The position numbers were made by a program, and so were the translations under genes. Shown in pieces: positions 25,096 to 36,930 of a stretch of DNA of 64,000 bases. Positions within the stretch are counted from its first letter, which is position 1. Each line of letters opens with the position of its first letter. Source of the DNA: Salinirussus salinus (GTDB taxonomy: Archaea; Halobacteriota; Halobacteria; Halobacteriales; Haloarculaceae); NCBI RefSeq assembly GCF_009831455.1, contig NZ_WOWO01000002.1, positions 744,001-808,000 on the forward strand. The letters run 5' to 3'. The notes below the pieces were generated by a model, which searched no databases, had not been told where the DNA came from, and saw nothing but the letters and a program-made list of their open reading frames with translations.

Positions 25096-26172
25096 TCAGA
25101 ACAGGTCGTCGAGGTTCTCGTCGAACATCTCCTCGGTCGTCGGCCCCTCACCCTCGGCGCTCGCGCTGGCCTCGCGGGCCCGCTCCATGAACTCCTCGAC
25201 CCGACGGGACCGCTCGACCCCACAGAGCAAGACGAGCGCGGCGAGACGGTCGCTATCGAGCGGAAAGTCACCGCCGCGGACCTGGAGGCTGCCGGTCTCT
25301 TCCTCGACCCACGAGCGGGCGCGCTCGACGCCCTTCCGGGAGATCCGCTCGGGCCGGCCGGCGATGACCAGAAGCGCCGCCTCCGCCTCAACGGCGTCGG
25401 GCAGGCTCATGCTCGTCAGGAGGGCGTTGCGCGTGAGGCTCGTGATGGTGTTGACGTTCTCGGCGGCGTCCTCGCTGGCTTCGGCGGTGGCGTACCCGAG
25501 GCTGGCGATCCCACCCTCCCGGAGGGTGTTGATGATCTCCGAGGAGTCGACGACGCTCTCGCCGACGCCCTCGACGGCTTCGCCGGAGGCCAGCAACACC
25601 CCGACTCGCTGGGCGATCTGGCGGTTGATCGCGTCGAACCCCTCTTGGACGCTCTCGCCGCTCTCCCGCCAGGCGTCGTTGTCGATGAGGAGGGCCGCAT
25701 CCGCCTCGCGGGTCACGGTCTTCAGCGAGCGGCCGGCGTTGGCCTGGTAGATACCCCCCTCGTCGCGACCCGGCAGGACGCCGAGCACGTAGATCGGGAT
25801 GTCGTAGATGCGGCCGAGTTCGCGCGCCAGCGCCGGTGCGCCGCCGCTTCCAGTGCCGCCGCCGAGACCGGCGACGACCATGACCGCCTCCGTCTGCGAG
25901 GTGATCCGGCCGTCGAGTCCGTCCATCACCTCGGTGGCCTCGCTCTGCATGATCTCGGCGCCGAGCTCGTTGTCGCCGCCGACGCCGTGGCCCTTCACGC
26001 GGTCCTGGCCGATGAGCATCGTGTCGATGTCCAGCGACTGGAGGTCCGCCTCCGCGGTGTTGACCGCGAAGGCGCTCTGGACCGCGCAGAAGTCCATCTC
26101 GTAGTCGAATTCGGCGATGGCCTGGGCCACCTTCCCGCCGGCCTGGCCCACACCGATCAGGGCGACTCTCAT
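25096..26172 (-). CDS. cetZ: CetZ-type tubulin/FtsZ superfamily protein
   Basis: This 358-aa GTPase has the N-terminal GVGQAGGK nucleotide loop, GHGVGGDNELGAEI, and the tubulin signature GGGTGSG (104-110). The VLPGRDEGGIYQANAGRSL block is typical of CetZ, the archaeal group that controls cell shape and motility rather than FtsZ1/FtsZ2 division proteins. The C-terminal tail is acidic and ends in EEMFDENLDDLF, possibly a partner-binding tail. It is divergent from a pilus-like operon with 73 nt between the starts. Confidence 0.9.
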   Translation of the reverse strand: MRVALIGVGQAGGKVAQAIAEFDYEMDFCAVQSAFAVNTAEADLQSLDIDTMLIGQDRVKGHGVGGDNELGAEIMQSEATEVMDGLDGRITSQTEAVMVVAGLGGGTGSGGAPALARELGRIYDIPIYVLGVLPGRDEGGIYQANAGRSLKTVTREADAALLIDNDAWRESGESVQEGFDAINRQIAQRVGVLLASGEAVEGVGESVVDSSEIINTLREGGIASLGYATAEASEDAAENVNTITSLTRNALLTSMSLPDAVEAEAALLVIAGRPERISRKGVERARSWVEEETGSLQVRGGDFPLDSDRLAALVLLCGVERSRRVEEFMERAREASASAEGEGPTTEEMFDENLDDLF

Positions 26173-26245: not shown

Positions 26246-26884
26246 ATGGACGACCAACTCGAAGAGCGGGTCGCCACGCTCGAACGCGCGGTCACCGACG
26301 GCGAGGGCGACCCCGCCGCGCTCGCCGACGCGGCCGTCACCGCCGAACGGCTGGATGACCTCGAGACGGCAGCCGAGGACCTGGAGGACCGGGTTGCCGA
26401 ACTCGAGGCAGCGACGCAGGCGCTGCGCGGGTACGTCGGCGAGGTCCGCTCGGTGAACCGGGAGGTCGAGGAACGGGCCGACCTGGCGCTCTCCCGGGTC
26501 GAGGACCTGGCCGGCGGGTCGAACACCTCTGGCGACACCCGCGACGAACCGGCCGAACGGAGCCCGCGGAACGTCGGTGAGGGCTCACGGCGTCGCGAGC
26601 GCTGTGGCCGGTGCGGCCAGCCGACCGACGGCGAGCCGGGGACAGGTGGTGAGTCCGCAGCGGCGGCTCCCGGTCCGCGGCAGGAAGAGTCCCCGGAGCC
26701 GACCGGCGGCGACCGGCCGAACGCCGCAGCGCTCGACGGGGGGTCGTGGGACCCCGGCGCTTCCAGGAGCCCGGGAGCGTCCTGGGCCGGGAGCGGGCCC
26801 TCTGGCTCGCGGGAAGGCGGTGGGCAGGCCGGTGAGGGAAGCGGAGCGGACGGGCCCATCGCCCGGCTCCGGAAGCTGCTGTGA
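26246..26884 (+). CDS. coiled-coil protein, first gene of the pilus-like operon (DUF7310-like)
   Basis: This 212-aa protein has an N-terminal coiled coil (about 1-90, with ATLERAVTDGE and LETAAEDLEDRVAELEAATQAL heptads). A disordered Ser/Gly/Pro-rich region follows with one CGRCG motif near residue 115, then a short C-terminal helix PIARLRKLL. From memory it matches a haloarchaeal family next to secretion ATPases (DUF7310). It may scaffold or regulate the ATPase. GTG of the next gene overlaps its TGA. Confidence 0.65.
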   Translation: MDDQLEERVATLERAVTDGEGDPAALADAAVTAERLDDLETAAEDLEDRVAELEAATQALRGYVGEVRSVNREVEERADLALSRVEDLAGGSNTSGDTRDEPAERSPRNVGEGSRRRERCGRCGQPTDGEPGTGGESAAAAPGPRQEESPEPTGGDRPNAAALDGGSWDPGASRSPGASWAGSGPSGSREGGGQAGEGSGADGPIARLRKLL

Positions 26885-27381
26885 TCCGGGCGGTACTCGC
26901 CGTCGCGCTCACCGCCGCGCTGCTCGGCGTCTCCCTCCCCGTCGTCGAGGAGGCGGGGCGGACCCACAGCGACGCGCGGGTGGCGAGTGAACTCGACCGG
27001 GTGGAGTCTGCGGCCCGGGCACTCCGTGCGGGGTCGACGGCCACGGCGCGCGGTCCGGCCGCCAGGCGGACGCTGACGCTCTCCCTGCCCGAGCGGACGT
27101 GGGCCCACCCCGGCCTGGCTCGGCTGACCGTGCCGCCTCCAGGGGGACGCGGCAGCGTGACGTGGCGCGTCGAGGGTGGGGCCGAGCGCGACCGGCGACT
27201 CCTCGGCGGCGACGTCGTCGGTCCGCCCGGCGGGCTCACGCTCCGGGAAGGTGGCAGCAGGGAGGTGGTGCTTCTGCTCCGCCCGGAGGGGGTGGTCGAG
27301 GTCCGGCGGCTGAGTTTTATCACCGAACGCGGGAGCACCGCGGCACATGGGACTCCGAGCGTTGCTGTCGGGCGCGGATGA
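26881..27381 (+). CDS. membrane-anchored small protein of the pilus-like operon (DUF7311-like)
   Basis: This 166-aa protein has an N-terminal TM or signal segment (about 3-20, IRAVLAVALTAALLGVSLPV) and an extracellular-type beta-rich remainder. It starts with GTG overlapping the previous stop by 4 nt, and its end overlaps the ATPase gene by 35 nt. Its role is unknown; position and topology suggest a minor subunit or assembly factor. Confidence 0.65.
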   Translation: MIRAVLAVALTAALLGVSLPVVEEAGRTHSDARVASELDRVESAARALRAGSTATARGPAARRTLTLSLPERTWAHPGLARLTVPPPGGRGSVTWRVEGGAERDRRLLGGDVVGPPGGLTLREGGSREVVLLLRPEGVVEVRRLSFITERGSTAAHGTPSVAVGRG

Positions 27382-29173
27382 GTCCGGCTGTGGGTGTCGA
27401 CCCCGGTTCGAGGACGACCGGCTGGTCGTCGATGCCGACGGCTGCGACGGGGCGGGCCGGCTGGAGCGTGAGCCCGACTGCCGCGCGACCGCGGTCTCCG
27501 CTCTCGCCGGGCGGGACGCCGATACGGTCCTGACGCGAGCGGCCGGCGTCGAGCGCGCGTACACCGGACAGGCGGGCGCACTCCTCGTCGCCGCTGGCCG
27601 GTTCCTCGAGCGGGTCCGGATCCACGACGAACGGCTCGCCGACCGCGTTCGGCGCGACCCGCTGGGAGCCGCCCGCGAGGCGACGGGCCGGGCGGACACC
27701 ACCGCCGACATCGCCGCGGAAGCCGGGCTCGCCGAGGTCGCGGCGGCCGCCGGCGGTACGGCGACTGCGCTCGCTCCCGTCGAGGGACTCGCCGTCAGCC
27801 GCTGGCGGGTCGACCGGTCGGTCCCCGGCGCCCCCCTCGAGGAGCGGAGGGACCTGGAGACCGGCGGGACCGTCCGCTGCTACCGCCGGGAAAGTACCTG
27901 GAAGTACCACCTCCAGCCGGCCGGCCAGCGGCTCGACGACGGCGAGACCGCCACGCTCGCCGCGGCGGCGGAGCGCTTTGCCGCCACGGGCAGCGAGCGG
28001 ACGCCGCGGGCGGCGGTCGAGGCAGTCGCCGACGGCGTTCGGGGCGAGGCCGTCGAGCGGGTCGCTGCCGTCCTCGCGAAACACACCCGCGGATACGGGC
28101 TGTTGGAGGACCTGTTCGCCGACCCCGCGGTGAGTGACGTCTACGTGACTGCGCCGGCGACCGCGAACCCGGTCCGGGTCGTGGCGGACGGGCGGGCCAT
28201 GCGGACGAACCTCCGGCTCACCGACGGCGGCATCAACGCCCTCGCCTCGCGGTTCCGTCGGGAGAGTGGCCGGGCGTTCTCGCGGGCCGCCCCGACCCTC
28301 GACGCCGCAATCGATGTCGGCGACCGGCAGGTCCGCGTCGCCGGACTCCGGCCGCCGGCCAGCGACGGGCTGGCCTTCGCGTTCCGGGCACACGACCCGG
28401 AGACCTGGCGGCTGGACGACCTGGTCGACAACGGGACCGTCCCTCCCGGAGCCGCGGCGGTGCTCTCGCTGTGCGTCGAGCGGGGCCGGTCGCTGCTTCT
28501 CGCGGGCGCCCGCGGGGCCGGGAAGACCACGATGCTCGCCGCGCTGCTGTGGGAACTCCCGGCGGACGTTCGGACGGTGACCATCGAGGACACGCCTGAG
28601 CTGCCCGTCGAGGCGTTGCAGGCGGCCGGCCGGGACGTCCAGGCGCTCCGGACGGGGGCGGATGGCGGCGAGATACCGCCCCCGGAGGCGCTCCGGACCG
28701 CGCTCCGGCTTGGCGACGGGGCGCTCGTCGTCGGCGAGGTCCGCGGCGAGGAGGCGAGTGTCCTCTACGAGGCAATGCGCGTCGGGGCGACAAGCGAGGC
28801 GGTCCTCGGCACCGTTCACGGCGACGGCGCCACGGCCGTCTACGAGCGGGTCGTCGAGGACCTCGGCGTCGCGCCCGCGGCCTTCGGGACGACCGACCTC
28901 GTCGTGACACTCGAGGCCGCTCCCGACGGACGGCGGGTCAGCCACATCGAGGAGGTGACCGGCGGCGATCGGCCGGGGTTCGAACCGCTGTACGCCGTCG
29001 GCGACGGCGGCCTCTCGTCGACCGGCCGTATCGAGCGCGGAAACAGCCGCGTCGTCGCCGCGCTCGCACGCCCCGGAGACACCTACGGGGACGTCAGAGC
29101 TCGCCTGGAGGAGCGTACCGCGCGGTTCGCGAAGCGAGCCGACACGGCAGACGGGAGCCGACCGTGGGACTGA
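27347..29173 (+). CDS. type II/IV secretion system (T4P-like) ATPase
   Basis: This 608-aa protein is a GspE/PilB/VirB11-superfamily ATPase that would power pilus assembly or secretion. Walker A is GARGAGKTT (387-395); the Walker B region is GALVVGEVRGEE, followed by the His-box-like GTVHGDG. The N-terminal 60 residues are Cys-containing (CGCRPRF ... DCRAT), a possible metal-binding addition. The N2 domain includes YGLLEDLFADPAVSDVYVTAP. A TadC-like platform gene follows with a 10-nt overlap. Confidence 0.92.
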   Translation: MGLRALLSGADESGCGCRPRFEDDRLVVDADGCDGAGRLEREPDCRATAVSALAGRDADTVLTRAAGVERAYTGQAGALLVAAGRFLERVRIHDERLADRVRRDPLGAAREATGRADTTADIAAEAGLAEVAAAAGGTATALAPVEGLAVSRWRVDRSVPGAPLEERRDLETGGTVRCYRRESTWKYHLQPAGQRLDDGETATLAAAAERFAATGSERTPRAAVEAVADGVRGEAVERVAAVLAKHTRGYGLLEDLFADPAVSDVYVTAPATANPVRVVADGRAMRTNLRLTDGGINALASRFRRESGRAFSRAAPTLDAAIDVGDRQVRVAGLRPPASDGLAFAFRAHDPETWRLDDLVDNGTVPPGAAAVLSLCVERGRSLLLAGARGAGKTTMLAALLWELPADVRTVTIEDTPELPVEALQAAGRDVQALRTGADGGEIPPPEALRTALRLGDGALVVGEVRGEEASVLYEAMRVGATSEAVLGTVHGDGATAVYERVVEDLGVAPAAFGTTDLVVTLEAAPDGRRVSHIEEVTGGDRPGFEPLYAVGDGGLSSTGRIERGNSRVVAALARPGDTYGDVRARLEERTARFAKRADTADGSRPWD

Positions 29174-30858
29174 CTGGTCGCCTGGCCGGGCTGTACCCCC
29201 TGGAGGTAGACCCGGGGCCTGAGTTCCGGCGCGCTGTCCGGTTTCTCGGCGTCGGCCCCCGGCCGTCGGAGATGCTCGCGGCGGGGTACGTCCTCTCCGG
29301 ACTGGTCACGCTCGCGCTTGCGGGGGTTTCCCTCCTGTTTCCCGCGGGGTTGCGTCCCGCGGGGCTGCTGGCCGCGCTGGCCTGCGGGCTGGCGGGCTCG
29401 GCCGCCGCAGGGTGGCTCCCGCGGCTGTTCGCGACCGCCCGACGGACGCGGAACCTGGGTGCGGCCCCGGACCTCGTCGCGCGTGCGGCCCTGCGGATGC
29501 ACGTCACACCGGCGCCCGAGCGAGCCGCTGCCTTCGCCGCCGAGACCGGCGAGAGCGGGCTCGCGGCGAGTCTGGAACGCCACGTTCGGGCCGCCGGGCC
29601 GACCGGCGACGCTGGACTGGAGTCGTTCGCGGGCGAGTGGGAGGAGTGGTTCCCGTCGCTGGGCCGTGCGCTCGCGCTCGTCGAGGCCGCTGGCTCGGTT
29701 CCACCCGACCGCCGCGGAGACGTCCTGGACCGTGCACTGGATGCGGTCCTGGAGGGCGTCCGGACCCGGACACAGGAGTACGCGAGACGTATCACCGGCC
29801 CGGCGACCGCGCTGTACGCCTTCGGCGTGCTGTTGCCGACGGCCCTCGTCGCGCTCCTCCCCGCTGCCCGGACTGCCGGGCTGGCGGTGACGCCGCTCTC
29901 GGTGGCCGTCGTCTACGACCTCGCCGTCCCGTTAGTGGTCGTCGCGGCCGGTGCCTGGCTTCTCGCCCACCGCCCGGTTGCGTTCCCGCCGCCGCGGGTG
30001 ACGCCCGCACACCCGGCGGTAGAGAACGCCATCAGCAGACGGACTGCCCTCCTGTTCGGAGGGGGCGCGGCCGTCCTCGGCTGGCTGACCGCGGCGCGGG
30101 TCGCGCCGGGCTGGGGCCCGCCGCTGGTCGCCGTGGGCTGGGGGGTCGGAGGGCCCCTCTGGCTGTATTTCCGTCCCGTGCGGGGCGTGCACGAGCGGAT
30201 CCGGGCGGCCGAGCGGGAACTCCCCGACGCGCTCGCGCTGCTGGGCCGGCGGGTGGCTGCCGGGGAGAGCATCGAGCGGGCGGTCGAGGCCGCGAGCGAG
30301 GACGTCGGCGGCCCGGTTGGAGAGACGCTGGCCGACGGTGCACGCCGCCAGCGGCGCCTCCAGGTCGGGGTCGAGGGGGCGTTTCTCGGCCAGCGAGGCG
30401 TGCTCGGACACCTCCCGAGCCAGCGGCTGCGGGCGAGCTTCTCGATGGTCGCGCTCGCGGGCCGCGAGGGACGGCCTGCCGGCCGAGCGCTCCTCTCGCT
30501 GTCCGAGCACGTCGGCCAGCTCCAGCGCGTCGAGGCGGACGCCCGGGCGGAGCTCGACAGCGTCTGCAACACGCTCCGGAGCACGGGCACCACCTTCGGG
30601 CCGCTCGTGGCCGGCGCGACCGTCGCACTCGCGGCAGGGATGACCGGCGGCGGCTTCATCGGCGGGTCGGGAATGCCGTGGCTGGGCGGTGTCGTCGGCG
30701 TCTACGTCATACTCCTCGCCGCGCTGTTGCCCGCGCTCGCGGTCGGGCTCGAGCGGGGCTTCGACCCGTCGCTCGTAGGTCACGCGGTCGGGCGCGCGCT
30801 GTGTGTGGCCGTCGCGGTCTACCTCGCGAGTTACGCGTTCGTCGGCGGCCTCGCCTGA
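29164..30858 (+). CDS. type II secretion system F (TadC/PilC-like) membrane platform protein
   Basis: This 564-aa polytopic protein has several TM helices (about 38-85, 210-275, 290-330 and 475-560) and cytoplasmic loops with the T2SSF pattern (ERELPDALALLGRRVAAGESIERAVEAAS). It appears to hold two F-type units. It is the membrane platform that the ATPase drives. GTG at 29164 overlaps the ATPase gene by 10 nt. No prepilin peptidase gene is nearby. Confidence 0.88.
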   Translation: MGLTGRLAGLYPLEVDPGPEFRRAVRFLGVGPRPSEMLAAGYVLSGLVTLALAGVSLLFPAGLRPAGLLAALACGLAGSAAAGWLPRLFATARRTRNLGAAPDLVARAALRMHVTPAPERAAAFAAETGESGLAASLERHVRAAGPTGDAGLESFAGEWEEWFPSLGRALALVEAAGSVPPDRRGDVLDRALDAVLEGVRTRTQEYARRITGPATALYAFGVLLPTALVALLPAARTAGLAVTPLSVAVVYDLAVPLVVVAAGAWLLAHRPVAFPPPRVTPAHPAVENAISRRTALLFGGGAAVLGWLTAARVAPGWGPPLVAVGWGVGGPLWLYFRPVRGVHERIRAAERELPDALALLGRRVAAGESIERAVEAASEDVGGPVGETLADGARRQRRLQVGVEGAFLGQRGVLGHLPSQRLRASFSMVALAGREGRPAGRALLSLSEHVGQLQRVEADARAELDSVCNTLRSTGTTFGPLVAGATVALAAGMTGGGFIGGSGMPWLGGVVGVYVILLAALLPALAVGLERGFDPSLVGHAVGRALCVAVAVYLASYAFVGGLA

Positions 30859-30890
30859 CGTTTATCACCGAAGGCGTGACCACACCCCCC

Positions 30891-31352
30891 ATGCTCGACA
30901 CGGCAGCCGATACCTGGTACACGTGGCTCGGCCTCGCCGCCGCGAGCCTGGCGGTCGGGGGTGTCGTCGCCGGGCTACCGACGGCGGTGCCGCCGGACGC
31001 GGAAGCTGTCGCCGCGACCGTCGACGGCGTCGCGGCCAGCCCGTACGACGAACACGAGCGGGTCGCGGTGTCGGCGGACGCGATGCGACTCGACAGTCGC
31101 GGCCTGACACTCCGGTCCGGCGGCGGGAAGGCACACGCGGCGTTCGCGCGCCGTGCCACGCCGGTCGGGGACGGGCCCCTCGCCGAGGTCCTTCGCGGGG
31201 CACCGCCCGAGAGCGTCTACCGGACGCGGGAGTCGTTCTCCGACGCACTCCGGGAGGCCCGTGCCCGGGAGTCGGAGTGGCGGCCGGCGCCGGAGGGGTT
31301 GACGGTCAGACGCGTCGCCTGGGGGGAGGTCGATGCGACGCTCGTCGGGTAG
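30891..31352 (+). CDS. single-TM surface protein of the pilus-like operon (DUF7283-like)
   Basis: This 153-aa protein has one TM helix (about 12-31, WLGLAAASLAVGGVVAGL) near the N-terminus and an extracytoplasmic domain of about 120 residues. A possible internal TATA (GTTTATCACC) lies about 30 nt before the start. The family number is from memory. It overlaps the next gene by 20 nt. Confidence 0.65.
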   Translation: MLDTAADTWYTWLGLAAASLAVGGVVAGLPTAVPPDAEAVAATVDGVAASPYDEHERVAVSADAMRLDSRGLTLRSGGGKAHAAFARRATPVGDGPLAEVLRGAPPESVYRTRESFSDALREARARESEWRPAPEGLTVRRVAWGEVDATLVG

Positions 31353-31737
31353 AGCCGGGACGGAGCCCCTGGCTGCGCTCGTCGCCGTCGCAGTCGTCTG
31401 CTCGGCCCTGAGTCTGTACGCCGGCCTGTTGCCCGGTTCCCCGTCGACGGACGGGCGGGCGGCGGCGGCCGAACGCCTCCTCGACCGCGTCTACGGACGG
31501 ACCGCCGAGATCGGGGTGGTGCACCCCAGTCGGCTCGACCGCGCCCTCCAGTGGCAAGGCCGGTGGCAGGGCAAGTGGCGGACGAACGTCAGCGTCGAGA
31601 GCGGGACGGCGACCTGGCAACGCGGGCCGACCCCGCCCGCGGACGCCGGGAGCGTCGCGACCGTCTCGCGTCGTGTGAGCGTGCGAGGACCGCTCGGCCG
31701 GGTCCGTCCGGGCCGGCTCAGGGTGGTGGTGTGGTGA
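31333..31737 (+). CDS. pilin-like single-TM protein (DUF7285-like)
   Basis: This 134-aa protein starts MRRSSGRAGTEPLAALVAVAVVCSALSLYAG. It has a short positively charged lead, then an EPLAALVAV helix, similar to archaeal type IV pilin/TadE-like N-termini with a conserved Glu early in the hydrophobic stretch. The rest is a beta-rich exported domain. It overlaps both neighbours, which places it firmly in the operon. Confidence 0.65.
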   Translation: MRRSSGRAGTEPLAALVAVAVVCSALSLYAGLLPGSPSTDGRAAAAERLLDRVYGRTAEIGVVHPSRLDRALQWQGRWQGKWRTNVSVESGTATWQRGPTPPADAGSVATVSRRVSVRGPLGRVRPGRLRVVVW

Positions 31738-32531
31738 CCCGCGCGGTCAGTACCGTCGTCGACACCCTCCTGTTCCTGCTTCTGGTGTCGGCGGCGGTGT
31801 TCGTCGTGACCGGACCCACGACCGAACCGGTCGACGTCCCCGCGGACGACACCGCCGAGGTGCTGGCGACGAGCACCGCGACCGTCGAGTACGAGGTCGG
31901 CGGGAAGGGGGAGACGATCCGCCGGCGCGCCCGCGGAACCTACGCCGGGCTGCTCGGCCGGGCCGCGGTCGCGAACGCGACGTTTTCCGGACGACAGGTA
32001 GCTCCCGACGGCCCCGCGTTCGCCGCGGAGGTCCGCGGGAAAACTGCGGCGGTGCTCGGAGCGAACACGCAGGTGTCGGCGCGGTGGACGCCCTACCCCG
32101 GCGCGCCGGTGGCCGGGCAGGTCACCGTGGGGCCCGACCCGCCGCCGCGGGCTGACGTCCGCGTCGCCCGGCTCCGGGTACCGGTGGCCGTCCCCTCCGT
32201 CGACCCGGAGCGGACGTACGGCAGTGTCGCCAGCGGGGTATCCCGGGCCGTTGCCCGTGGGATGCTCCCCGGGAGTACGGCGGGTCTCCCCCTCGGCAAC
32301 GGCCCACACCGGCGCGCCGTGGCCCACCGCTTCGACGTGCTGACCCGAGGTAGTGTCGCACGCACGCCCGCCGAACCGGGAGACGTGACGGCGGCCCGGG
32401 ACGTCGCCGCGAGGGCGCTCGCCCCGGCGTTCGCTGCTGACCTCAGAGGTCGGTTCGACTCGCCCCGTGACGCGGCCACGGCCGTGGAAACGGGAACCGC
32501 GACGGTCGTCGTCAGGCGGTGGAAGGGATGA
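31734..32531 (+). CDS. pilin-like single-TM protein (DUF7284-like)
   Basis: This 265-aa protein starts with GTG at 31734 and reads VTRAVSTVVDTLLFLLLVSAAVFVV. The RAVS-T-VV pattern resembles the RAVSPVIG prepilin-peptidase site of haloarchaeal pilins, but the proline is replaced by threonine. A large exported domain follows. It overlaps its neighbours by 4 nt on both sides. Confidence 0.65.
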   Translation: MTRAVSTVVDTLLFLLLVSAAVFVVTGPTTEPVDVPADDTAEVLATSTATVEYEVGGKGETIRRRARGTYAGLLGRAAVANATFSGRQVAPDGPAFAAEVRGKTAAVLGANTQVSARWTPYPGAPVAGQVTVGPDPPPRADVRVARLRVPVAVPSVDPERTYGSVASGVSRAVARGMLPGSTAGLPLGNGPHRRAVAHRFDVLTRGSVARTPAEPGDVTAARDVAARALAPAFAADLRGRFDSPRDAATAVETGTATVVVRRWKG

Positions 32532-35500
32532 ACGACCGCGCCAGGGTCCCGTTCGCACTGCTCGGCGTCCTGCTGCTGGTCGGGAGCGCCACGTACGCCG
32601 CGTCGCTGTCGAGCCCGGTACCGGCCGAGCCCCGAGTCGCCGAGACCATGGAGGAGTTCGGCGCCGAGACACGGACGGCAGTGAGAGAGGGGGCCCGGGA
32701 CGCCGCGATGGAGGCGGCTGCCGATCCGGTGACCCGCCGGGCGGACACGCGGGCCGGCGGGGCGCTCGGGCGCGAGGCCACATTCCGGGATGCGCTCCGG
32801 CTCCGTATCTACACTCGCGTTCGGCAGGGGCTCGGCGACCTCGGGCGTCGGGACGGAACGCTCCGGCTCGCGGCCTCGCTTCCCGTTCCGGAGACCCGCG
32901 CGGAGCTACGCCGGGCGGTCAAGCGGGTCACCGTCGAGCGGGCCGGCCCCGACGGGGCCGAACTTCGCGTCACCGTCGAGAACGTGAGTCTGACCGTCCG
33001 ACGGAACGGACAGACCGTGGCCCACAGGGAAGTCAACCCGACCGTCCGGGTGGCCGTCCCGACGCTCGCAGTCCACGACCGCGTCGCCCTGTTCGAGCGG
33101 CGGCTCGGTGCCGGCCCGACCGGCCCAGGTCTCGGCCGCCGGCTGACTGCCAGCCTCTACCCGCTGGCCTGGACGCGCGGCTACGCCCAGTACGCGGGCA
33201 CACCGGTCGAGAACGTCATCGCCAACAGACACGTCGCGCTGGCGACAAACGGTGCGGTGCTGGACATCCAGCGGTCGGTGTTCGGGACCAGCGACCCGGT
33301 CGGCAGACGCGCGCTGCGGGAGGCGACGGCCAGGACCGCGATATCGGACGCGCTGAAGGGGTCGGGCCACGCCGGACTGAAGACGCTCGAGCGCGCCCGC
33401 GGCTACGTCGTCGACCCGTCACCGCTCCCGGACCAGAAACGGCTCGGCGACCGGGCACGGGAGCAGGGGCCTTCGCCGGAGGAGAACGTCACCGTGGGGG
33501 TGAACGAGACGGCCGACCGGGCGTTTCTCTCCGCGTTCGGCTCCGAGGCGGAGGTCCCGCTCGACGAGCGGCTCGAGCGCCACTACGAGGTGGACGTCCG
33601 GCGTCGAGTCCGCGCGACGGTGGTCTCGGACCGCCGAACCGGACCCGCCGTCCACCCGAAGGACAACTGGACGCGGGTCGGCTCCGAGCGCGAGGCGAGG
33701 ACGAGCGTTCGGGAGCGAACGACCGAGCCGCCAGAGCCAGACGGCGACTGGCACGTCCTCGCGCACCACCCGCGGCGCGTCGTCAGACGGGTCACCGAGC
33801 GACACGTCTGGTCGACCCCGGCGGGGAGGCGCACCACCGAGCGCCGTCGGGTCGTCCGGGTCGACATCACGGTGTTCCTGACGGGGAACCACGCCGTCGA
33901 CAGCGCGCCCCCCGGGAACGTCACCCCGGTCCACGCTCGCGGCGGGCCGCTGAACGGACCGAACCTGGCGGGCGTTCGGGACACCGCACGCGAGCGGCTC
34001 CTGGCGGACGAGGGCGGCGCGGACGGGATCGCACGGAGGGTCGCAGCCGGCGACCCCCGACACCTCGAGCGCCGGGCAGCGGCGCTGGAGACGGAGACGA
34101 CCGTCGCCGGCGAGCAGCCCCCGGACCTCGACGCGTGGGTGTACGGTGACCTCGCGGACCTGCGCCGCCGGGTGGCGAACGTGTCCGTGACGACGAGCCA
34201 GGGGAGGGTCGCGACGTTCGGGGTGAACCCGCCGGCGAAACTCCGGGAGCGGCTCCGGACGCGGCGGGCGGAACTGCTCGACCGCCCGGACACGTACGAC
34301 GGCGTCGCGGACCGGGCACGGGTCGCGGCGCGCGCGGCGTACCTCGAGCGAGTCTCTCGGCTGCTCGAGGCCCGCGCACAGCGCCGGGCCGACAGGGCCA
34401 CCACCGTCTCGGAGGAACTCGCCGCGGAGAGCGAGGGGAGCCTGCACGCGTCCTACCGCGACCGGACGCGGCGCTCGCCCCCCGGCGGGCTGTCGCTGCC
34501 GATGGTCGTCGACGCCCGCCCCTCCTATCTGACGACCGCAGCCGTCGACGGCGAGATACTTCCGAGCCTCGGGGAGGGACACTCCGGCCACCCGCTCGCA
34601 GTCCGGAACACGAACGTCGCGTCGGTTCCGTACGCGGACGCCGTCGGGGCGGTCATGGAGGCGTTCAGCAGCCCCGGCCGTGTCTCGCTGAGTCGGGCCG
34701 CACAGGCGCTGCGGGTGTCGGGCGCCAGCCTGGTCGCCACCGGCCGGTCGAACGAGACACACCGGGAGCTGTCCGGACAGGTCGCCGACTCGGTGGAACA
34801 CCTCCGGGGAGAGCTGGCCTTCACCCTGAAACAGGAGGGGCTCGGGCCCGAGTCCGTGCGGCGCTCGCTGGTCGCAAACGCCACCGCCGGGTGGGAGCGT
34901 CCCGACGAGGCCGCCCGCGCGTTCGTCAACGGCTCGGCGGCTGCTGCAGTCCACCGGGCGGCGGTCCGCGAGTGGCCGTCGCTCACCGGCCGCGAGCGCG
35001 ACGTGCTCCGGCTCCGGCTCGACGCTGCAGTCAGGAACGGGCTGGAAACGCCCCGTGCCGGAGTCGGGAAGCCAGCGGTACGCGAGGTCGCCGACACGGT
35101 CAGGACGGTCGCCGAGGGGGAACTGCGACGGAAGGCAGACGACCTCTCGAAAGAGGTGAGCGAGCGGGTCGCCGACCGGCTGGAGGACGAGGTACTCTCG
35201 ACCGGGACGGGCAGACGGCTCGGCGGGGAGTTCCTCGCGAAGCTCCCGACGGGCGTCCCGCTGGCGCCGGCTCCCGGGCTCTGGTACGCGACGGCCAACT
35301 TCTGGGACGTCGACGTCCGCGGGGTCTACGCGCAGTTCGTCGTCCGGGTTCCCCGGGGCGCACCCGACACGCCGGGCGGGTTCAGATACGTCCGGGACGG
35401 CGACGAGGTACGTCTCGACGTCGATGCCGACGGCGAGCGGGAGGTACTCGGGCGAGCGAGTCGGATACGCTTCGCCACCGGGACCGACATCGCCGTCGCG

Positions 35501-35587
35501 GTACCGGCCGGCCCGCGCGGGGTCGCAGACGTCGACGGCCAGCGGACCGAGGCGTCGGCCGGCTGGCCGCGCCCGGGCTGGAGGTGA
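32528..35587 (+). CDS. very large single-TM exported protein (DUF7286-like)
   Basis: This 1019-aa protein has one N-terminal TM/signal segment (about 8-26, PFALLGVLLLVGSATYAAS). The long extracytoplasmic region is rich in Arg/Asp/Glu, with many NxS/T sites (for example NVSLT, NWTR and NATAG) that could be N-glycosylated. No catalytic domain is recognised. ATG 32528 overlaps the preceding stop. It is the largest product of the operon and the likely main surface component or substrate. Confidence 0.65.
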   Translation: MNDRARVPFALLGVLLLVGSATYAASLSSPVPAEPRVAETMEEFGAETRTAVREGARDAAMEAAADPVTRRADTRAGGALGREATFRDALRLRIYTRVRQGLGDLGRRDGTLRLAASLPVPETRAELRRAVKRVTVERAGPDGAELRVTVENVSLTVRRNGQTVAHREVNPTVRVAVPTLAVHDRVALFERRLGAGPTGPGLGRRLTASLYPLAWTRGYAQYAGTPVENVIANRHVALATNGAVLDIQRSVFGTSDPVGRRALREATARTAISDALKGSGHAGLKTLERARGYVVDPSPLPDQKRLGDRAREQGPSPEENVTVGVNETADRAFLSAFGSEAEVPLDERLERHYEVDVRRRVRATVVSDRRTGPAVHPKDNWTRVGSEREARTSVRERTTEPPEPDGDWHVLAHHPRRVVRRVTERHVWSTPAGRRTTERRRVVRVDITVFLTGNHAVDSAPPGNVTPVHARGGPLNGPNLAGVRDTARERLLADEGGADGIARRVAAGDPRHLERRAAALETETTVAGEQPPDLDAWVYGDLADLRRRVANVSVTTSQGRVATFGVNPPAKLRERLRTRRAELLDRPDTYDGVADRARVAARAAYLERVSRLLEARAQRRADRATTVSEELAAESEGSLHASYRDRTRRSPPGGLSLPMVVDARPSYLTTAAVDGEILPSLGEGHSGHPLAVRNTNVASVPYADAVGAVMEAFSSPGRVSLSRAAQALRVSGASLVATGRSNETHRELSGQVADSVEHLRGELAFTLKQEGLGPESVRRSLVANATAGWERPDEAARAFVNGSAAAAVHRAAVREWPSLTGRERDVLRLRLDAAVRNGLETPRAGVGKPAVREVADTVRTVAEGELRRKADDLSKEVSERVADRLEDEVLSTGTGRRLGGEFLAKLPTGVPLAPAPGLWYATANFWDVDVRGVYAQFVVRVPRGAPDTPGGFRYVRDGDEVRLDVDADGEREVLGRASRIRFATGTDIAVAVPAGPRGVADVDGQRTEASAGWPRPGWR

Positions 35588-35620
35588 CAGCCACTTGTAC
35601 CCGGACGGCCTATTCCGGGT

Positions 35621-36049
35621 ATGCTCAGAGGGGAGTTCCCGTCGGCGGGCGAACAGTCACCGGAGACGCTCCGGGCAGCGTACGACGACCACCTGGCGAC
35701 GGTCATCGGCGCGGTCGGCGTCGAAACCGTCGCGGAGCGGGCCGGGCTCGACCCGGAGCTACTCCGGGCGCTGGTCGACGGCGAGCACCCGGAACTGACG
35801 CTGTCGGAGGCGGCGGCGGTGCTGGCGACCGACCCTGACCGGCCGGACGCCGACACCATCGCCGCGGAGGCCCGGGACATCCTCCTGATGGGGATGACGA
35901 CCGCGGTGCTGGACGTGGAGGCACTCGCCTCGGCGGTCGACGACGAACTCGAGCCCAAGGAGATCCAGCAGAAAGTCGAGGGGCGGTTCCCCGTCACGCT
36001 CGACGAGTACGCGCTGCTTCACAGCGCTATCGAGAGCCGGAAACGATGA
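35621..36049 (+). CDS. DUF5791-like protein
   Basis: This 142-aa soluble acidic protein is mostly helical, with VGAVGVETVAERAGLDPELLRALVDGEHPELTLSEAAAVLA, which resembles a helix-turn-helix. A second helical part (ALASAVDDELEPKEIQQKVEGRFPVTLDEYALLHSAIES) follows. From memory it is DUF5791. It sits 33 nt after the large surface protein and overlaps the next gene by 4 nt, so it may be co-expressed though functionally separate. Confidence 0.65.
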   Translation: MLRGEFPSAGEQSPETLRAAYDDHLATVIGAVGVETVAERAGLDPELLRALVDGEHPELTLSEAAAVLATDPDRPDADTIAAEARDILLMGMTTAVLDVEALASAVDDELEPKEIQQKVEGRFPVTLDEYALLHSAIESRKR

Positions 36050-36930
36050 CGCGAGTCGCGGTGCTTGGCTGTGGCTACGTCGGGCTCGAACTCTGTCGGC
36101 AGCTCGACACCGACGTGGTCGGGGTCCGCCGGTCGGACGCGGGCATCCGGGCTATCGAAGAGACCGGCGCGACCGCCGTGCGGGCCGACGTCACCGACGC
36201 CGACGCGCTCGAGGCGGTCCCGGACGCCGACGTCGTCGTCTTCGCGGCGAGTTCGGGTGGTCGCGGCGCCGAGGCGGCCCGGGAGGTGTACGTCGAGGGT
36301 CAGCGGACGACACTCGAACACTTCGCCGGGCGCGCGGACCCGCCAGAGCGGTACGTCTACACCTCGAGCACCGGCGTCTACGGCGACCACGGCGGCGGCT
36401 GGGTGGACGAGGAGACCACGCTGTCACCGGTGACCGAGAAGACCGAGGTGCTCGCCGAGGCCGAGACGGTCGCACTCGAGGGGGCGGCCGACCGCGGCGT
36501 CGACGGGACCGTCGCCCGCTTCGGCGGCCTCTACGGGCCCGACCGCTACCGGCTGGAGCGGTACGTCGAGGGGCCGGTGACCGAAGGGTACCTGAACATG
36601 GTCCACCGTGACGACGCGGCGGGCGCCGTCCGGTTCCTCATCGAGGCGGACGCTGCCCGCGGGGAGGTCGTGGTCGTGGTCGACGACGAGCCAGTCGAGA
36701 AGTGGGCCTTCGCGGACTGGCTGGCCGGGCAGTGTGGCGCGCCCGCCCCGCCGAAGCGGACCGTCGAGGAGCGCCTGGAGGAGGGTGTCTCGGAGGCCGT
36801 CCGGCGCCGGCTCACCACGAGCAAGCGATGCTCGAACGACAAGCTCCGCGGGCTGGGGTACGACTTCCGGTATCCGACCTATCGGGAGGGGTACCGGGCG
36901 GCTATCTCGGCCTGGAGCGGGGCGGAGTAG
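36046..36930 (+). CDS. NAD(P)-dependent epimerase/dehydratase-like (extended SDR) protein
   Basis: This 294-aa protein has the Rossmann motif VLGCGYVGLELCRQL at the start and the VYTSSTGVYGDHGG active-site region with the SDR serine. The expected YxxxK is unclear (the segment after VTEKTEVLAEAE lacks a clear YxxxK), so the family resembles YeeZ-type proteins rather than classical UDP-sugar epimerases. It has no signal peptide. ATGA overlap with the preceding gene. Confidence 0.8.
   Translation: MTRVAVLGCGYVGLELCRQLDTDVVGVRRSDAGIRAIEETGATAVRADVTDADALEAVPDADVVVFAASSGGRGAEAAREVYVEGQRTTLEHFAGRADPPERYVYTSSTGVYGDHGGGWVDEETTLSPVTEKTEVLAEAETVALEGAADRGVDGTVARFGGLYGPDRYRLERYVEGPVTEGYLNMVHRDDAAGAVRFLIEADAARGEVVVVVDDEPVEKWAFADWLAGQCGAPAPPKRTVEERLEEGVSEAVRRRLTTSKRCSNDKLRGLGYDFRYPTYREGYRAAISAWSGAE

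Follow-up and report, generated by a model that had tools for sequence, protein, structure and literature searches.

An eight-gene operon of the haloarchaeal pil-2 type in Salinirussus salinus and its giant pilin-like exported protein

The locus was analysed within a 64,000-nucleotide stretch of Salinirussus salinus DNA (the window; from contig NZ_WOWO01000002.1), on whose forward strand the consecutive open reading frames between positions 26246 and 36930 either share 4 to 35 bases or sit at most 33 bases apart. The original prediction had described mostly overlapping genes for a coiled-coil protein, an ATPase, a TadC-like protein, four small single-TM proteins and an exported protein of 1019 residues, and this description is borne out by the open reading frames, the Pfam matches and a scan for transmembrane (TM) segments. 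According to the scan, DUF7310 and the ATPase contain no TM segment, DUF7311, DUF7283, DUF7285, DUF7284 and DUF7286 have one each at the N-terminus, and the TadC-like protein has about seven; the T2SSF match of the latter is slightly under the Pfam cut-off. The fifth frame is presumably DUF7283, an assignment made by frame and position. The operon consists of eight genes (26246-35587, + strand), in the order DUF7310, DUF7311, ATPase, TadC-like, DUF7283, DUF7285, DUF7284 and DUF7286, which are listed with their neighbours in Table 1. DUF7310 is probably arCOG07564 of Makarova 2016, going by the match of descriptions, and the CetZ-family gene (25096-26172) is probably CetZ2, going by published synteny.

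Table 1. Features of the locus, with positions in the window (↓, putative class III cleavage site).
Feature	Position	Strand	Basis
DUF7310 coiled-coil protein, cytosolic, acidic	26246..26884	+	PF23991 6e-27; conserved gene 1 of the operon; TM scan: none
DUF7311, one N-terminal TM	26881..27381	+	PF23993 1e-33; methanogen pilin-like homologue keeps class III leader
PilB2-type secretion ATPase (motor)	27347..29173	+	T2SSE 5e-20 (Pfam)
ATPase N-terminal four-cysteine motif C15, C17, C33, C45	27389..27481	+	C-x-C-x15-C spacing in relatives
TadC-like membrane platform, PilC2 type	29164..30858	+	T2SSF 9e-5; ~7 TM; conserved beside ATPase
DUF7283-type small protein, one N-terminal TM	30891..31352	+	Open frame; conserved in 64 loci
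DUF7285, pilin-like, single TM	31333..31737	+	PF23956 3e-25
DUF7285 putative class III dipeptide R7-A8 (RA↓GTEP)	31351..31356	+	Sequence; relatives R[GA]Q[TV]EP
DUF7284, pilin-like, single TM, alpha/beta head	31734..32531	+	PF23955 4e-61; model pLDDT 90
DUF7284 putative class III dipeptide R3-A4 (RA↓VST)	31740..31745	+	Sequence; conservation among relatives
DUF7286, 1019-aa giant exported pilin-like protein, one N-terminal TM	32528..35587	+	PF23957 2e-295; AlphaFold2 pLDDT 81
DUF7286 putative class III dipeptide R4-A5 (DRA↓RVPFALLGVLLL)	32537..32542	+	Conservation before TM
DUF5791 and epimerase genes	35621-36930	+	Pfam; close behind operon, 4-base mutual overlap
CetZ-family tubulin gene	25096-26172	-	CetZ_C 6e-68; divergent, 73 bases from operon

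To delimit the unit, 69 loci of relatives were annotated with profiles built for this analysis. The full set of eight genes, DUF7310 to DUF7286, is present in 55 of them, an arrangement far beyond chance. The original prediction had staked itself beforehand on the small genes co-occurring with the ATPase in other genomes, and they do so strictly (55 of the 69 loci, 116 genomes). Among the 116 haloarchaeal genomes sampled, DUF7286 is found in 89 and DUF7311 and DUF7284 in 85 each, the latter two never without DUF7286 (0 cases); DUF7286 is without a DUF7311 match in four genomes, including the three with DUF7286 remnants. The conserved unit is nevertheless smaller than the ten-gene operon first proposed, which we reject because DUF5791 and the epimerase gene persist after loss of the operon (loci L097, L098 and L108) and are both missing beside 12 of the 55 complete operons. 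They are syntenic bystanders, travelling independently of it. CetZ is likewise unsupported as a part of the machine, as it is missing in 24 of the 55 complete loci (some of these absences may be mere locus ends) and is retained after operon loss. In L097, L098 and L108, only pieces of DUF7286 remain between CetZ and DUF5791, which lie about 1 kb apart or have overlapping stop-to-stop frames, compared with 8 to 9 kb in intact loci; this indicates en bloc loss of the operon. One internal TAG is present in the DUF7286 gene of L020 (G100), and in L057 the gene is read as a pair of fragments; the break may be recent. A CxxC motif of DUF7310 was considered as a zinc finger and rejected, as it is present in only 5 of 58 relatives.

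The closest solved relatives of the ATPase are 2oap, CpaF (8rjf, E-value 8e-23) and FlaI (4ii7, 2e-18). It scores 88.7 bits with the archaellum-motor profile NF058587 (cut-off 550) and 30.9 bits with the GspE profile TIGR02533 (cut-off 630), so that these profiles assign it neither to the ArlI type nor to type II secretion. In the tree, it groups with haloarchaeal operon ATPases and their methanogen counterparts in a single clade (support 100/100). The cysteine spacing of its N-terminus is common to operon ATPases of the genomes G058 (two) and G001, and the four cysteines possibly bind a metal. Another pilin cluster of the genome (L171, G000:C4:334000-352000) is located near a very divergent T2SSE ATPase, with a branch of 4.8 changes per column.

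For an archaeal prepilin peptidase, position -2 must be charged and position -1 must be G, A or S. A [KR][GAS] dipeptide is found ahead of the TM segment in 73 of 82 DUF7286 relatives, 64 of 74 DUF7285 relatives and 48 of 75 DUF7284 relatives (in the last mostly as RAVS, RGVS or RAIS). The patterns among relatives are [DE]R[AG]↓RVPFALVGVLLLV for DUF7286, R[GA]↓Q[TV]EP for DUF7285 and R[AG]↓[VI]ST for DUF7284; P8 and F9 of DUF7286 are invariant across 45 sequences, methanogens included, and the DUF7284 site (RA↓VST) is the same motif as that of H. volcanii PilA4-6 (RAVS). In one haloarchaeal lineage, DUF7284 begins at the mature helix and the class III site is missing. The dipeptide precedes the TM segment in 0 of 64 DUF7283 proteins, where a class III site was not found, and there is no convincing site in haloarchaeal DUF7311, the apparent RA motifs falling upstream of the likely start. 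DUF7284, DUF7285 and DUF7286 are likely candidate pilins and substrates of a prepilin peptidase, and the earlier statement that no classical pilin is present is probably wrong, since all three carry conserved class III motifs. The statement that a prepilin peptidase is lacking holds for the operon but not for the genome, which has one Peptidase_A24 gene elsewhere (G000:C3:235551-235961, 39.7 bits with a cut-off of 26.5). The giant protein had also been proposed as the substrate of the machine, which is likely, since DUF7286 has a pilin-type N-terminus.

The AlphaFold2 model of DUF7286 has an N-terminal helix and a flexible linker, followed by mixed alpha/beta and helical parts, while that of DUF7284 consists of a TM helix, a linker and an alpha/beta head. 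With Foldseek, the DUF7286 model gave no match under an E-value of 0.001 in the PDB and none among viral models, and the DUF7284 model gave none under 0.001 among solved structures. A second look with each model returned best Z scores of about 6, for SecB-like and helical parts with DUF7286 (VIA) and for a ribosomal protein of the small subunit (C-terminal part) with DUF7284, both within noise; sequence-profile searches of the PDB yielded nothing convincing. Since the scores lie within the noise of the tool, the fold searches of these models speak neither for a known fold nor for a new one. The net charge of the heads is +0.043 per residue for DUF7284 and +0.020 for DUF7286, compared with acidic PilA-type heads of the same genome. 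Across species, the five exported families of the operon have heads of near-neutral or slightly basic charge, and the flanking cytosolic proteins are acidic. Such exported heads (26881-35587) are unusual for a haloarchaeon, and we note them as a lead. As a sign of DNA binding, the basic heads were considered too weak, the pilin cluster L171 of this genome having near-neutral heads too.

A phylum-wide search retrieved relatives of DUF7286 in methanogens, where the DUF7285, DUF7284 and DUF7286 genes are found together or nearby. Two further pilin-like genes precede DUF7285, which gives the haloarchaeal order (7311-like, 7283-like, 7285, 7284). The first of them matches DUF7311 by profile (probability 94%, E-value 1.4e-7), and the match of the second to DUF7283 is marginal (13.5%, E-value 0.002). 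The methanogen relative of DUF7311 has about 20 extra N-terminal residues with a site of the KGAD or RAAD type, that is a leader with a class III-type site, so that the haloarchaea have lost theirs. A gene for a sarcinarray MAST-domain surface protein comes after DUF7286. The ATPase-TadC pair sits elsewhere in the methanogen genome; with the operon ATPase profile, each of four methanogen genomes has exactly one ATPase of about 400 bits, all others scoring under 160. In L163 and L165, a HerA-like ATPase lies in the vicinity of this pair, as do a DUF7311-like gene and a probable prepilin peptidase (translations read by eye). A tandem array in L125 (G276:C40, 84-4381) alternates short proteins matching the C-terminal part of DUF7286 with proteins of about 200 residues whose sequences resemble the sarcinarray kind.

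The operon is almost certainly pil-2 (pilB2-pilC2; arCOG01818), a type IV pilus operon of haloarchaea, and probably belongs to subclade 4F. Its parts are hence not undescribed, as first thought, the locus being the published pil-2 or pilB2-C2; the idea of a dedicated pilus-type machine is supported. The DUF family names of the operon proteins were found nowhere in the literature searched. What the operon encodes is most likely a machine that builds a type IV pilus or a short pseudopilus and displays DUF7286. In the working that we propose, the details of which we lean towards rather than assert, Sec would insert DUF7284, DUF7285 and DUF7286 into the membrane, and the prepilin peptidase encoded elsewhere would cut their short positive leaders directly ahead of the TM helix. 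Through the TadC-like platform, the ATPase would raise the cut subunits out of the membrane to build a surface fibre or a short pseudopilus. DUF7286, with about 980 extracellular residues on its pilin-type helix, may be displayed as a tip or adhesin-like subunit, with DUF7311 and DUF7283 as putative membrane-anchored assembly or minor subunits and DUF7310 as a putative cytosolic regulator. Taken as a whole, an eight-gene pil-2 type IV pilus operon working in this manner is the best explanation, in which we have good confidence, and its computed basis is the gene content, the strict co-occurrence, the conserved class III motifs and the orthology of the ATPase. Against it stand the lack of a PilA-type major pilin in the operon, the heads of the DUF7284 and DUF7286 models, which match no solved pilin in Foldseek, and the lineage in which the DUF7284 gene starts at the mature helix. 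The machine is found in about three quarters of the sampled haloarchaeal genomes, yet what it builds has escaped observation. That no filament of the pilB2-C2 system has been observed, and that H. volcanii with PilB3-C3 deleted has been reported to be without pili, also count against the explanation.

The absence of a major pilin could be explained if the ATPase-TadC pair assembled PilA-family major pilins from elsewhere, the pilin-like proteins of the operon serving an ordinary long pilus only as minor or initiator subunits. This is a real possibility, if a doubtful one: the ten PF07790 (PilA-type) matches of the genome are all outside the operon, stand-alone major pilins (arCOG02981 and arCOG10216) have been proposed for subclade 4F (Makarova 2016, PMC4858521) and pilins encoded in trans likewise serve the PilB3 locus, but no particular pilin could be linked with the operon as its partner. 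The several large or minor-type pilins, again with no major pilin in the operon, would also suit a pseudopilus for protein secretion or DNA uptake, in which they form a short piston, with DNA or a different exported molecule as the true cargo. The slightly net positive heads of DUF7284 and DUF7286, as opposed to the acidic PilA-type ones, and the near-neutral heads of the five exported families across species are in line with this. We consider it rather unlikely, however, as the loci read hold no cargo gene associated with the operon, no DNA-channel gene was seen in the operon itself, and the heads in L171 are near neutral as well. It is a little less probable still that no long pilus is made and that the product is a short S-layer-coupled surface complex, with the giant pilin DUF7286, of a fold unseen in solved structures, as the main displayed subunit; were this true, the methanogen sarcinarray protein would be its cell-wall partner.

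A 2023 CetZ study (PMC9856176) suggests pilB2-C2 as a mobile or recently gained regulon, on which view the block would be a recently acquired mobile element. In that source pilB2-C2 is present or absent beside a constant cetZ2 neighbourhood, and relocated operon copies without the usual flanks are indeed found here (L076, L093, L094, L100-L109). Absence is, however, due to loss in at least three cases, those with DUF7286 remnants between cetZ and DUF5791, and the order of the exported protein set is kept in methanogens, which makes recent acquisition highly improbable. Losses with remnants, together with the methanogen relatives, argue instead that the operon is old and has been repeatedly discarded.

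Among known systems, the Tad pilus resembles this one in its ATPase, CpaF being a relative, and its TadC-like platform, but there is one platform gene here, and no Flp pilin or secretin match among the scanned operon proteins. The ATPase is also homologous to FlaI of the archaellum (ArlI/ArlJ), from which the system differs in the profile score (89 against 550) and in having no archaellin in the operon. Of the hallmarks of archaeal type IV pili, the class III signal peptides are matched here as sequence motifs only, and the genome has a prepilin peptidase gene. Subclade 4F systems are described as having a Cys-rich ATPase N-terminus, a coiled coil and an FtsZ-family neighbour, with methanogen members and an S-layer-like protein in relatives (PMC4858521). 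The operon shares with them the ATPase gene beside that of a TadC-like platform, the Cys-rich N-terminus, the cytosolic coiled coil (DUF7310) and the CetZ/FtsZ-family neighbour; membership rests on these traits and the methanogen orthologues, the sequences of the published tree being outside the tree made here. In the report by Losensky and others (PMC4292770), the H. salinarum pil-2 locus contains PilB2 (OE1347R, arCOG01818) and PilC2, with seven co-transcribed genes and three FlaFind-positive prepilins. There, pilB2 is 8.5-fold higher in adherent cells and interrupted in strain NRC-1; pil-2 has been called restricted to haloarchaea. The CetZ study places pilB2/C2 next to cetZ2, arCOG04674 and the epimerase arCOG03095. 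The likeness to pil-2 and H. volcanii pilB2-C2 includes the ATPase, the platform, the pilin-like genes and the CetZ2 and epimerase neighbours, DUF5791 taking the place of arCOG04674 and the epimerase that of arCOG03095 (by position, not by arCOG number). In their available parts, the giant protein is not singled out as a pilin, and the en bloc loss and methanogen orthologues found here do not figure. The system itself is already known; what is added here is its delimitation to eight genes, the likely pilin nature of the giant protein, the loss of the DUF7311 leader and the deletions. With the unit delimited and DUF7284, DUF7285 and DUF7286 as likely peptidase substrates, families of unknown function become testable pilin candidates.
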